From positions 3,972,546 to 4,036,545 of the forward strand of contig NZ_CP032157.1 of assembly GCF_003555545.1 (NCBI RefSeq): 64,000 bases of DNA, in the 5' to 3' direction. Positions 47,472 through 53,264 of this stretch are shown here, piece after piece. The position numbers and the translations under genes are program-made. The first letter of the stretch is position 1. Each line of letters begins with the position of its first letter. Source of the DNA: Paraflavitalea soli (GTDB lineage: Bacteria; Bacteroidota; Bacteroidia; Chitinophagales; Chitinophagaceae). Under the pieces are notes generated by a model that was given only the letters and a program-made list of their open reading frames with translations, was not told where the DNA came from and searched no databases.

Positions 47472-47528
47472 AAGAATACAGCATTTAGAATACAGAAGCC
47501 TGAACTCAACATTTAGAAGACAGGAGTG
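47472..47528. repeat. Degenerate AATACAGA word repeat
   Basis: AGAATACAGCATTTAGAATACAGAA-type words between ispD and the FemAB-like gene. Related stretches lie at 60789-60827 and 62397-62436. Confidence 0.55.
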
Positions 47529-48494: not shown

Positions 48495-48543
48495 AAACCC
48501 GGTGAGCTGTCCCGACTGAAGTACGGGACGACCCACCGAGTTT
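48495..48543 (-). terminator. Nested hairpin between the M1 peptidase and FemAB-like genes
   Basis: Outer arms 48495-48504 and 48534-48543 pair at nine of ten positions; the inner stem GTCCCG / CGGGAC (48509-48514, 48524-48529) has a 9-nt loop. It begins at the M1 stop codon, so it may end that transcript, though no long T-run follows. Confidence 0.55.
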
Positions 48544-51480
48544 TAATGGCCAATGATCTTCCTCAGGTTGAAACGTTGTATATCAAAGCTGAAGGAGAGG
48601 CGTTTGCCAAATGTATTTACTTCGGGCGTGGTTTTGAGGTTGTCCCTGAATTCCTTGCTGTAGAACAGGGGCGCATAGACATTGAGCAGGTCTTTGAACA
48701 GGGTCAATTGTAAACCTGCCACGTACAGGAACCTGCTGGTCTCGGCATCCTTTTTCCAGGCTTCAGCATAAGTACCCAAATCCAGGAATATCCTTATGGG
48801 CAACTTTACAGGGAACAGCTTTTGAGGAAGTGTTGTATTGAAATTTGCGGAGGCCACCCAATTATCGGAACGGCCCTGTAATCCTGCAAAAAGGTCGGTA
48901 CGTAATTTCAACCCGCCATCACGCATCATGATCTGCTGACTGGCGGCTCCATCAAATTCAGACCTACCAATAAAATAATTGCTGTAGGTGTAATCTTCAT
49001 CGCCCCGTACAGCAGTGAGTTTTGGTTGATACAAAAAGGTACGTCCAAGCTTCTCGCTGGTCTTTCCTCCGATGTAGCCAAATTTGGCAGCAAATAGCCT
49101 TACCTGCATCCCTCCTCCTTTGGCATAATTGAAAAAGTAGTAGCCGGTAGCATTGGCCCGGTAGAAACCATCACCCTGTTGTAACTGGATCTGTACATCG
49201 TAGGGGTACAACTTTCTATAGTCGGTAATGTTGAACGTAAGCTGGTTGAGGTAACGGTTGCGTGTGACACCCGGTGCCGGATAAGTCATAGAATCATCGC
49301 TATCTGTTACATATTTGAATCCCTTTTCTCCTATCAGATAAGTTTTCCATTCTATCCATTTTTCAACGGTAGAGAGCAATGACTTGTTTTTGAAAGTGAA
49401 ACGCAGGGATGGAACTACTTTGTGAAAGCCGCCAAAGACCTTGGTGGCATTGCTGTCTGTTCCTTCCAGGGTGGAAAACCGGGCACCGGTCAGTCCCAAT
49501 TCGATGGATTGAAAATGCTTATTGGGATGCCAGGTATAACTGATGTTTCCAATGCCATTGATTTGTTTGCTGCCGGTTGCATATACGGGTACCGCTATGA
49601 ATTGAAAATTATGGGAAGGCATGCTGATGTTGTGCAGCACCAGGCCAAGCATGAACTTATCGTACATGTTGTATCCGATGGCCGGTAAAAAGTTCACATA
49701 ATTTACCTTCTCATAATCCTTCATAGAAAAGAGGAAGGCAGGCCTGATCTTTTTAGGGCCGGTATATCCGCCGGGCAACACACCGGTGGTATCGAGCAGC
49801 CGGAACGAGGCGCTGAGGTCTTTACCGGTCTGCTGCTGCATGAGCCGTTGAAAGTCTTCGGGTGCCGGATGTTTGAATTTCCATTGCTGGTAATACTGTT
49901 GCATGGCGGCATCAAAGGCGGGCTGGCCAATGGTTTGTTCCAGTTGCTTCATCCAGCTGGCGGCTTTGGCATAAGCGATCACGGCGTAATTATCTTCGGT
50001 AAAAGCGGCCGAAGGGGTATTGATGGGTTGGTCTTTTTTTTCTTTGGCAAGGGCTGCGAGGATCAATGCTGTCTGGTCTTCGGGTATCTTGGATTCAAAC
50101 CAGCCTCTCGCCGGTTTATTGGGATACTTCCATTCTTTGTAGCGATTGCCATAATAAGAGTTAATGCCTTCATCCATCCAGGGATGGTCGCGTTCATTAT
50201 TGGCCAGGATACCATAGAACCAGTTGTGGCCCACTTCATGTTCGATCACAAAATCCAGTGTTTGGGTATCCTTCACGGGACCTATATTGGTAATAGTGGG
50301 ATATTCCATGCCGCCATCGAAACCTGTATTGGTTTCTACTACGCTCACTACATTGTAAGGATATTCGCCAATAAGCCGGGATCGGAAATGAATGGCGTCT
50401 TTTGTCATGGGGAGGCTGCTCTTCCACATTTTATCGTTGGGTGCATAGAAGGTCCAGGCGTCGATCACTCTTCCGGAGGGCAGTTGTATGGTATCGTAAT
50501 TAACGACAAATTGTTTATCGGCAAACCAGGCAAAGTCGTGGATGTTGGTTTGTTTGAATTGTAAGGTCTTAACGATTCCGGATGTAGGATGTAGGATTTC
50601 GGATTCTTTAGGCTCGGCTACGTACTCCTTTTCTTTTGCCGGGGGGTATTGTTTACGGGCTTTTTTATGGTCTTTTTACCTTTCAGAGGCACTTTATTGG
50701 AAGTAGGTTTTGCAGCAGGTTTCTTCGGAGGGGGTTTCAGGAATTTTGGTTTTTGGATCACGGGGGGGCATGCTGTTCTCTATAAGCGGCATTCATTTTC
50801 CGCATCCATTGCTTTTCTTCTTCACTCTGCAGTTCACCGGTGGCAGCCACTACATAATCCTGGGGCACGGTAATGCGTACATCATAAGTACCGAACTCAC
50901 TGTAAAATTCACCCTGGTCGAGGTAAGGCATAGGATGCCAGCCCTTGCTGTCATACACGGCGGGTTTGGGGTACCATTGGGTGGCCTGGTATGACTGGCC
51001 GGTGTGCCCTCCGCGGGAAAAATTCTTTGGCAGCTTTACATGGAAGGGGGTGGTAATCTCTGTTTGTGCGCCGGGCAGCAATGGCGTGGGGAGGTATACT
51101 TTTACAATATCAATGTATTGGGGATGATCTTCAGTAGGCAGTGTGGCATTGTTGATCCGGAAATCAAGGCGATTGATGTACCCGTGCTGTTCACGGCTGG
51201 AAAAATAAAAGTCGGTACGTCCCTGCAGGAGCAACTGGTCACTAAAAGCTGTCCGGTCATTTTTATAGGCATTGGGCCAAAGATGGAACCAGATGAAGGT
51301 GAGGGTATCGGGAGAATGGTTGGTGTACCGGAGTTTGAGGAAACCCTGCAGGCTGTTTTGCTGGTCGTCGAGGCTCACATCAATGGTATAATGCAGTTCC
51401 TGCTGCCAATAGGCAGATTGACACCAGGCAGCAGTGCTGGTTGAAGCCATAAGCAGAAGCAGCAGCAGTTTTTTCATCAT
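48543..51480 (-). pseudogene. M1 family metallopeptidase with barrel-like C-terminal part, two frameshifts
   Basis: The N-terminal frame (51480 to 50758, 240 residues) has a signal peptide and the M1 domain start (WQQELHYTIDVSLDDQQ). The C-terminal frame (from about 50641 down to 48543) continues with HDFAWFADK, the zinc site HEVGHNWFYGILANNERDHPWMDEG (HExxH-18-E) and a beta-rich, outer-membrane-like region. Between them the open frame is a third one, encoding a Lys/Pro-rich linker (VIQKPKFLKPPPKKPAAKP). One extra C in the C7 run at 50762-50768 and one in the C6 run at 50641-50646 would restore a single protein of about 979 residues. It may therefore be an assembly error, a phase-variable gene or a pseudogene. 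The paralogue at 51687 is intact across the same region. Confidence 0.85.
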
Positions 51481-51540
51481 ACATCTATGATTAAATCCGT
51501 AATGTTCTCTACGGTTACGGATGCAAGGGGGCGCCTACGG

Positions 51541-51685
51541 CGCACCATTTGTTACAAAGCGGTTGCCCCGATGGGGCAAAATACACCTTTGATACACGAT
51601 CCTACAAAGCGATAACCCCTAAAGGGGCAAATACACCTTTGATACGCCATCCTACAAAGCTTTAGCCACTAAAAGGCATAGCGTT
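51541..51685. repeat. Three tandem units of the CTACAAAGC/AAATACAC element
   Basis: Units begin at about 51551, 51602 and 51652. Each starts TACAAAGC, followed by a small GC hairpin (TTGCCCC-GAT-GGGGCAA in the first) and, in the first two, AAATACACCTTTGATAC. The third is degenerate and abuts the stop codon of the intact M1 gene. A fourth copy lies at 26351-26400. Confidence 0.7.
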
Positions 51686-51686
51686 T

Positions 51687-53264
51687 TTAAAAATTCCCTT
51701 CCCTATTCAACAGTTCAAAGTTCTGATCAAGGTTCTCCTGGCTGGACTTTTCCAGGGCTGCTTTGAGGTCTTCGGGGTAGGGATGTCTGAACTTCCAGGT
51801 AGCATAGTATGCCTGCATGGCCTTATCAAATACTTCCCGTCCCAAAGCCATTTCCAACAAATATAGCCAGGTAGCTGCTTTCACATATACAACGATACCG
51901 TAATCATTTTTATTGGCAAAACCTGTTGAGGCTGTATTTACGGGTTCTTTGGCAGGCAGGCTGTTGAGGGCATTGTACACACGGCTCAGCAGCTCGGGAG
52001 CAGGCAAAGCCTTTATTTCCTTGGGCATGGATCTCCCAAAAATACTGTTGGCCCTGTACTTTTCGGCTTCATACCGGAACTGGTAGAAACTGTTGATGCC
52101 TTCATCCATCCAGGGATAATCGCGCTCATTGCTGCCCAGGATGCCATAAAACCAATTGTGCCCCACTTCATGGGTAATCACGGCATCCAGTTCCTCTGCA
52201 CCGGCTTCAGGACTGGTAATGAGGGTGATCATAGGGTATTCCATGCCGCCGGAAGAAAGGTTTTTGGGTCCTTCTACTGCCTGCACCACGGGCCAGGGAT
52301 ACTCTCCTATCCATCCGGAATAACGGCTTACGGCATCTTCAATAAAAGAAATGCTGTTGCTCCATTCTTTGTTGCCATTGGGCTGGTACCAGGCAAATAC
52401 ATCAACGATCTTACCGGAGGGTAATTGCAAAGTATCGTATTGAATAACGGCATCCTTATCGGCAAACCAGGCAAAGTCGTGGATATTCTCGCCAACGTAT
52501 TGCAATGTTTTGGGCGCATCGGGTTGAGCGGCTTTGTATTTTGCCACAGCAGCTTTGGCCTGGTAGTTTTGAGCGCCGATGGTTTTGTATTGGTCCAGTT
52601 CTTCGGTGTTTTGCAAAGTACCGGTAGCACCTACCACATAGGCAGCGGGTACGGTGATGTTGACCTTAAAGGATCCAAACTCACTGTAAAACTCTCCCTG
52701 ATCCAGATAGGGAAAGGCGTGCCATCCCTTTTTGTCGTATACGGCGGGTTTTGGATACCACTGGCAAATCATGTATTGATCACCATCGTAGCCGGAACGG
52801 GAAAAGTAAAAGGGCAATTTTACATGGAAAGGAGTAGTAATGGTAGTGGTTTGGCCAGGTAATAATGGGGAAGGTAGCAGGAGTTTGACCACATCTGCAT
52901 CATTGGCACTGTCCTGCCCGGTGGTTACGGCTTTACCATCTACTGTAAATGCGAGGCCGTCAATATATCCTTCGTTCTTCTTATTCCTTAATTTTTTTCT
53001 GCCTTCCTTATCCTGGGACAACTGTTTGGCCAGGGCTGTATTATCGTCTTTATAAGCATTGGGCCAGAGGTGGAACCATATATAGGTGAGGGTATCGGGG
53101 GAATGATTGATGTATTTCACAGAAAGGTTGCCCTGAAGGGTGTGTAGTTTATCGTTGAGTGAAACATCAATGGAATAATGTACTTCCTGCTGCCAGTAGT
53201 CCTGGGCAAGGATGGTGTTACATACCAGGATAAGCGTTAAAAGGGGGCCAACTTTTCTATTCAT
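51687..53264 (-). CDS. M1 family metallopeptidase
   Basis: A 525-residue secreted zinc aminopeptidase-like protein with a signal peptide (about 1-20, ending ILAQ). The M1 N-domain (WQQEVHYSIDVSLNDKLHTLQG) precedes the catalytic domain with GGMEYPMITLI (GxMEN-like loop) and HEVGHNWFYGILGSNERDYPWMDEG (HExxH-18-E). It is a close paralogue of the frameshifted gene downstream but stops after the catalytic/helical domain (LDQNFELLNREGNF), whereas the paralogue continues with a 300-residue beta-rich part. The repeat cluster begins directly at its stop codon, so the missing part may have been lost there. Confidence 0.9.
   Translation of the reverse strand: MNRKVGPLLTLILVCNTILAQDYWQQEVHYSIDVSLNDKLHTLQGNLSVKYINHSPDTLTYIWFHLWPNAYKDDNTALAKQLSQDKEGRKKLRNKKNEGYIDGLAFTVDGKAVTTGQDSANDADVVKLLLPSPLLPGQTTTITTPFHVKLPFYFSRSGYDGDQYMICQWYPKPAVYDKKGWHAFPYLDQGEFYSEFGSFKVNITVPAAYVVGATGTLQNTEELDQYKTIGAQNYQAKAAVAKYKAAQPDAPKTLQYVGENIHDFAWFADKDAVIQYDTLQLPSGKIVDVFAWYQPNGNKEWSNSISFIEDAVSRYSGWIGEYPWPVVQAVEGPKNLSSGGMEYPMITLITSPEAGAEELDAVITHEVGHNWFYGILGSNERDYPWMDEGINSFYQFRYEAEKYRANSIFGRSMPKEIKALPAPELLSRVYNALNSLPAKEPVNTASTGFANKNDYGIVVYVKAATWLYLLEMALGREVFDKAMQAYYATWKFRHPYPEDLKAALEKSSQENLDQNFELLNREGNF

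Follow-up and report, generated by a model that had tools for sequence, protein, structure and literature searches.

Tandem M1 metallopeptidase paralogues in Paraflavitalea soli, one with and one without a predicted Omp85-like barrel tail

Two neighbouring genes for M1-type metallopeptidases lie in a 64,000-nucleotide (nt) stretch of the genome of Paraflavitalea soli (hereafter the window), within a single contig of 8,443,189 bases. The upstream gene is tail-less ('solo'), and the downstream gene, on the same minus strand, continues beyond the peptidase part into a C-terminal tail that is predicted to form an outer-membrane beta-barrel (Table 1). We consider it likely that these two are an ancient tandem pair, descended from a protein that combined an M1 peptidase with an Omp85-like barrel, of which one copy lost the barrel early and became soluble, and that proteolysis is optional in the tailed form. 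That both belong with the M1 metallopeptidases (aminopeptidase N / LTA4H family) is indicated by several features: Peptidase_M1 (PF01433) is matched above its cut-off of 27.7 bits in the solo protein as well as in the C-terminal fragment of the tailed one, both carry the M1 zinc motif HEXXH-18-E, GGMEY is present, a variant of GXMEN, and M1 enzymes are what PDB searches give, whether by sequence or by fold. Peptidase_M1 was the sole family in the Pfam scan of the window proteins, in which a patatin-like domain was not found. What sets the present proteins apart from known M1 enzymes is the predicted C-terminal barrel, which none of the listed M1 structure titles mentions, and the loss of the zinc site in many homologues of the tailed protein. 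An earlier, sequence-only reading of this DNA had proposed two neighbouring M1 paralogues that share their protease part, and this is borne out by the Pfam matches and by the identity between the two, which amounts to 56% over solo residues 8-232 and 45% over residues 232-523. It had also correctly seen that one paralogue ends right after the protease part, as the C-terminus of the solo protein lies directly behind the Peptidase_M1 domain and a repeat cluster comes next; the tail of the other, put there at 300 residues, measures about 414 amino acids (aa).

Solo orthologues of about 525 aa are present in all four same-genus relatives, and so is the tail. At an E-value (E) up to 0.001, the tail is matched in 127 of the 195 sampled genomes of the family, and a phylum-wide sample of 395 genomes gave it in 66, for the most part within open frames some 900-1060 aa long. 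Within this genome, no second tail besides that of the tailed copy was found at E up to 0.1. The 40 regions fetched for comparison were picked from good matches and hence are not a fair sample: 14 of them hold both genes complete, solo first and on the same strand, three (L075, L086 and L088) also have the pair, one of its two genes being cut or broken, and ten (L092, L094-L097, L099 and L101-L104) hold a solo gene and no tailed gene within the fetched stretch, L104 showing the start of a second copy at the contig end. Among the best 80 of 257 stretches, the solo/tailed pair occurs in 17, with several others cut at contig ends; the 'solo' labels of L131, L185 and L186 belong to fragments of split or cut tailed genes.

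The probable direction of change was read from trees of these sequences. A tree of 123 rows, built from tailed open reading frames (ORFs) longer than 850 aa and solo ORFs longer than 450 aa with exact duplicates removed, places the 35 solo and the 84 tailed rows each on one side of a branch, with a Shimodaira-Hasegawa-like approximate likelihood ratio (SH-aLRT) of 87. As the two are sister groups in this tree, either direction is possible within the pair alone, and the downstream copy could have gained its tail after the duplication. Two further trees, both keeping 43 of the 84 tailed rows, speak to this. In one, 20 far tailed rows of the family were added and distant M1 paralogues of this genome served as outgroup (SH-aLRT: solo 97, tailed 86, far 65, solo plus tailed 95). 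The other has eight tailed rows from other families in place of these paralogues (solo 98, tailed 98, far 98, other families 73, solo plus tailed 99). Therefore, with 28 tailed rows (the 20 far and the eight of other families) outside the group formed by solo and tailed genes, the tail is probably ancestral, and a single loss, early in the family, is the simplest reading of these sequences. A gain of the tail is very unlikely in view of these 28 rows, 20 of which also branch outside with the distant paralogues of this genome as outgroup, and of the occurrence of the tail across the phylum sample described above.

Could the loss instead have happened in this very genome? The sequence-only reading had suggested that the tail was either lost by a deletion at the repeats or gained in the other copy; loss is probably the right direction, whereas the place and the mechanism did not hold. 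It is true that repeats begin close behind the solo stop codon. However, tail-less orthologues, named there as the finding that would speak against such an event, are the rule, with solo genes of the same length in each of the four same-genus relatives and all 35 solo rows in one group. Furthermore, the gap between the two genes measures 206 nt here versus only 9, 13, 17 and 32 nt in those relatives. The gap holds two 50-nt units that are 80% alike, plus a palindrome. Allowing up to 3 mismatches, the module CTACAAAGCGGTAGCCCCTAAAGGGGC was matched 31 times in this genome, 4 times in G001, 16 times in G003 and not at all in G002 or G004, the reversed control giving none in all five genomes; the palindrome GGGGGCGCCTACGGCGCACC has 8 matches in this genome, one in G002 and none in the other three, again with controls at zero. 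By eye, seven of the eight GGGGGCGCCTACGGCGCACC palindromes are then followed by the same CTACAAAGCGGTAGCCCCTAAAGGGGC module. The repeats are a dispersed intergenic family, and given the short gaps of the relatives and the 31 matches across the genome, the element is best taken as a later intergenic insertion. The search for a decayed tail between the genes, which had been suggested as a check, returned nothing beyond chance (best tblastn E 0.38), while a search with solo against the tailed region, run as positive control, gave E 1e-76. As such, a deletion at the repeat cluster as the origin of the solo gene is improbable in the extreme.

The repeats themselves, as seen in the window (51530-51652) and in L217-L223, form a composite palindromic element in which a GGTGCRCCTACRGCGCAC-like palindrome is usually followed by CTACAAAGCGGTAGCCCCTAAAGGGGC, some of them standing in arrays. 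A structured RNA in the intergenic stretch was not supported (z -1.6, with 15 of 200 shuffles as good).

So what is the tail? Modelled alone, the tail of the window protein is predicted to be a barrel, with a predicted local distance difference test score (pLDDT) of 87.2 and a predicted template modelling score (pTM) of 0.84. Foldseek returned 660 matches to this model at E up to 10 and 114 at E up to 0.001, and the titles of the best 50 of the 660 name BamA/BAM, TamA, CdiB or SAM (best E 6.8e-8). For a relative, L112, the protein was modelled at full length (pLDDT 85.9), and the 50 whole-chain matches listed for it are M1-type peptidases. DSSP assigns 17 strands to the tail model, or 16 without the short first one (13-18); the count of 16 reflects our own choice of segments and includes a last strand of 4 residues. 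One loop of 71 residues separates strands 11 and 12, all other gaps being at most 21 residues, and in the predicted model this loop sits where loop L6 of Omp85 proteins does. Its conservation is 0.69 versus 0.62 for the whole tail, with five strands scoring higher. Omp85 loop 6 is associated with a VRGF/Y motif (excerpt of PMC12611786). In its strict form this motif was not found in loop 6 of the tails, where G is present in 77/77, R in 32/77 and K in 24/77, and the residue that comes next is mostly Y, N, D or S (Y in 30/77). Neither was a POTRA domain seen before the barrel, as the M1 helices of the L112 model end at residue 568 and the strands start from 582. In Omp85 proteins a POTRA domain ahead of the barrel is usual, not universal. 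Across 30 tails, Pfam gave no family and only two stray sub-threshold matches, and a sequence search of PDB with the tail gave no credible match, a T-box transcription factor at E 0.023 being the best.

We must take into account that a number of results weigh against the reading proposed here. The trees are quick ones, midpoint-rooted for drawing and without bootstrap, and the rows outside the solo group were chosen for having a tail, such that tail-less relatives there could be missed. As to the barrel, PF01103 was matched by none of the 30 tails at E up to 1, and the best 50 of the 660 Foldseek matches reach TM-scores by query of 0.37-0.47 at root-mean-square deviations of 8-15 A. Profile-profile comparisons between the tail and Omp85 sequences were weak in all five set-ups (Prob 0.3-3.7%, decoys 0.1-0.6%): Prob was 0.9% against a mixed Omp85 set, in a comparison that left out L318, and 1.7% and 3.7% against 23 lipoprotein-type rows (P 0.029 and 0.012; the reversed decoys gave P 0.52 and 0.23), and the results for a second subset, of 6 rows, were no better than those of the decoys. 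One of these alignments (P 0.029) runs in order over the region from loop 6 to strand 13. Of the alignments made, A2 comprises 61 of 66 listed ORFs and A4 comprises 76 of 79 listed ORFs plus the window, the list of 79 itself leaving out L124 and shorter matches. Since a PF01103 match, the VRGF/Y motif and a POTRA domain were all missing and the profile-profile scores were weak, the tail is, on the strength of its model, built like an Omp85 barrel, and we do not file it as an Omp85 member. The last points concern the zinc site. Six of the 84 tailed rows (L108, L128, L130, L132, L137 and L182) have changed ligands and lack the site, and in two other families, f4 (0/7) and f5 (0/36), perhaps the Weeksellaceae and the Flavobacteriaceae, the motif is absent from all 43 tailed homologues examined. 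'Peptidase' is therefore not a valid name for the whole family.

Elsewhere the site is well kept: HEXXH-18-E is present in 35/35 solo, 20/20 far tailed and 78/84 tailed rows (the window tailed row being its two fragments joined), and in the tailed homologues of the families f2 (4/4), f6 (1/1) and f9 (3/3). Outside the family, the site was examined in 51 of the 57 genomes with a tail match, leaving out G219, G230, G238, G261, G445 and G497. Among the six rows that lost it, L130, L132 and L137 group together in the 123-row tree and L108, L128 and L182 stand apart; in L132 and L137, the solo gene directly upstream of the altered tailed copy is intact. The four f4 and f5 rows tried against the Pfam M1 model fell below the cut-off (E 0.014, E 0.036 and two without a match). 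An M1 profile made from rows of the family matches all 43 f4 and f5 rows at E 8e-17 or lower, as against 0.087 for the best of the reversed decoys. This repeated loss of the zinc site in proteins that retained the barrel suggests that the barrel still functions without proteolysis, and that the barrel, not proteolysis, is the preserved function of the tailed form.

The solo gene is an intact ORF. Its tailed neighbour is not, and lies in three pieces with two frame changes: a 240-aa ORF is followed by a linker that is read in a different frame, and the 641-aa ORF behind the linker uses yet another. The first change is located at a run of seven C (C7; 50762-50768). The second falls within about 50618-50675, a stretch of some 58 nt that contains a C6 run (50641-50646), and we infer that this run is itself the place. 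The linker frame is open in all four same-genus relatives, in three of which (L072, L073 and L074) the tailed gene is complete, at 975-984 aa; in the fourth, G003, the gene is cut by contig ends, and its L076 piece of 870 aa is open across the linker. Behind each break, the conserved sequence of the relatives resumes; the linker varies widely among them in both length and letters. Divergence was judged by nonsynonymous distance (dN), because synonymous distance (dS) is saturated for many pairs. For the C-terminal part, the dN of the window to G004 is 0.113, the lowest of 10 pairs; for the N-terminal part the picture is mixed, the distance to G001 (0.100) being the lowest and that to G002 (0.203) the highest of six pairs. 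The C-terminal part thus diverges no faster than in the relatives, which means that the breaks are either very young or errors of assembly, and the tailed copy is thus frame-broken in this genome either very recently or through such an error.

We give about an even chance to the breaks being assembly errors at C runs, with the tailed gene intact in the cell. The 64-kb window has only 11 G/C runs of at least six, the longest being seven, and the breaks coincide with two of these runs or lie close to them; both the resumption of the conserved sequence and the unraised C-terminal dN are in line with this. Against it, six of the other nine runs lie inside ORFs of at least 150 aa and leave these open, the remaining three lying between such ORFs according to the ORF map. 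The chance that the breaks are real, making the tailed copy a very young pseudogene and the solo gene the only active one of the pair here, falls just a little short of even. Two breaks within one gene and the intact sister gene next to it argue for this, and so does the start of the 641-aa ORF inside the peptidase part, with no earlier ATG, GTG or TTG in frame, which leaves it without an N-terminal signal; the C-terminal dN and the open frame of the same-genus relatives speak against it.

Further split genes and unusual linkers were seen elsewhere. The tailed genes of L185 (4587-7233) and L186 (4313-7227), both metagenome assemblies by title, appear to be split, that of L185 roughly at the linker where the window gene is broken too, and in L088 (912-5390), from a genome in 600 contigs, the tailed and solo genes both appear split. 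In L079 (G153), a linker stretch of 150 residues holds tandem KGNRQSARGNEQLA-like units, which sets it apart from the other linkers shown. AGAATACAGAATTCAG-like minirepeats are found between genes in the window (47474-47526), L219 and L222 and, by eye, are seemingly translated within the tailed-peptidase linkers of G001 and G003 (L074 and L076).

Table 1. Features of the solo and tailed genes and the stretch between them (window positions)
Feature	Coordinates	Strand	Basis
C-terminal fragment of tailed gene, 641 aa: catalytic M1 part and barrel tail	48543..50468	-	PF01433 64.2 bits
Tail, predicted Omp85-like outer-membrane beta-barrel, 414 aa	48543..49787	-	structure model, Foldseek, DSSP
Pro/Lys-rich hypervariable linker of tailed copy, two frame changes	50469..50768	-	comparison with relatives
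N-terminal fragment of tailed M1 peptidase, 240 aa, stop just past C7 run	50758..51480	-	ORF map; 56% identical to solo N-terminus
Stretch between the genes, with modules of the dispersed palindromic repeat (51530-51543; 51553-51602; 51603-51652)	51481..51686	.	repeat searches
Tail-less (solo) M1 peptidase, complete, 525 aa, HEXXH-18-E present	51687..53264	-	ORF map, PF01433 58.4 bits

How might such a pair have come about, and how might it work? The ancestral protein would have consisted of an M1 peptidase followed by a C-terminal Omp85-like barrel of about 16 strands. Going by the model and by analogy, this barrel would lie in the outer membrane, and the M1 part would face the periplasm at the barrel mouth; we place the M1 part there because the N-terminal enzyme domain of the patatin-Omp85 protein PlpD is reported to be periplasmic (excerpt of PMC11116518). 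An early duplication in the family would then have yielded a copy that lost its barrel once and went on as a soluble enzyme keeping its zinc site, often directly upstream of the tailed copy. Peptides or client proteins may be handled by the tailed protein at the mouth of its barrel, and peptidase activity may come from the solo copy, which would be secreted and soluble as judged by eye from putative signal peptides. The barrel together with its M1-fold module would thus be what is conserved in function, with proteolysis as an option. Alternatively, the barrel might export the M1 domain to the cell surface in the manner of type V autotransporters. Type Vd was indeed proposed for PlpD because an enzyme stands before a C-terminal barrel, but the very paper that describes this reports the PlpD enzyme domain as periplasmic (excerpt of PMC11116518), and we regard surface export as unlikely.

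Among known systems, PlpD shares with the tailed protein an enzyme domain N-terminal to an Omp85-type barrel (excerpt of PMC11116518), yet here the enzyme is an M1 peptidase instead of a patatin, and in the tailed-protein model a POTRA domain would not fit in between the enzyme and the barrel. Heinz and Lithgow (2014) distinguished ten Omp85/TpsB groups, including patatin, WD40 and PF00149 ('Metallo') ones; the last likewise has a metal-dependent enzyme domain ahead of an Omp85 barrel, although this domain is PF00149 there and M1 (PF01433) here, and an M1 group was not seen in the excerpt of that survey, whose text has no word beginning with 'peptidase' (PMC4104836). BamM, a subunit of the Bacteroidota BAM complex, is also an outer-membrane factor of this phylum named for metal ions. 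It is, however, a surface lipoprotein with a peptidyl-prolyl isomerase fold, which rules out that the M1 proteins of the window are BamM (excerpt of PMC12611786). In the open-licence literature searched, which is only part of the literature, we found no description of an M1-barrel or M1-Omp85 protein.

Omp85 proteins act in the building of outer membranes and in the movement of proteins across them. In a wider and more tentative proposal, which we put forward as a possibility with the balance tilted against it, Bacteroidota would have Omp85-like barrels that use an M1 fold as periplasmic module in place of POTRA domains. The barrel would be the essential part, serving outer-membrane or exported proteins, and the peptidase would be dispensable, having disappeared from every member examined in two families and having passed, in some genomes, to an adjacent barrel-less twin. 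A barrel of this kind, widespread in Bacteroidota, joined to an M1-fold module and with a tail that fell into none of the Pfam families here, would enlarge the Omp85 set by one group. The separate losses of the zinc site, two of them beside an intact twin, offer a natural experiment on the role of the barrel when proteolysis is gone.

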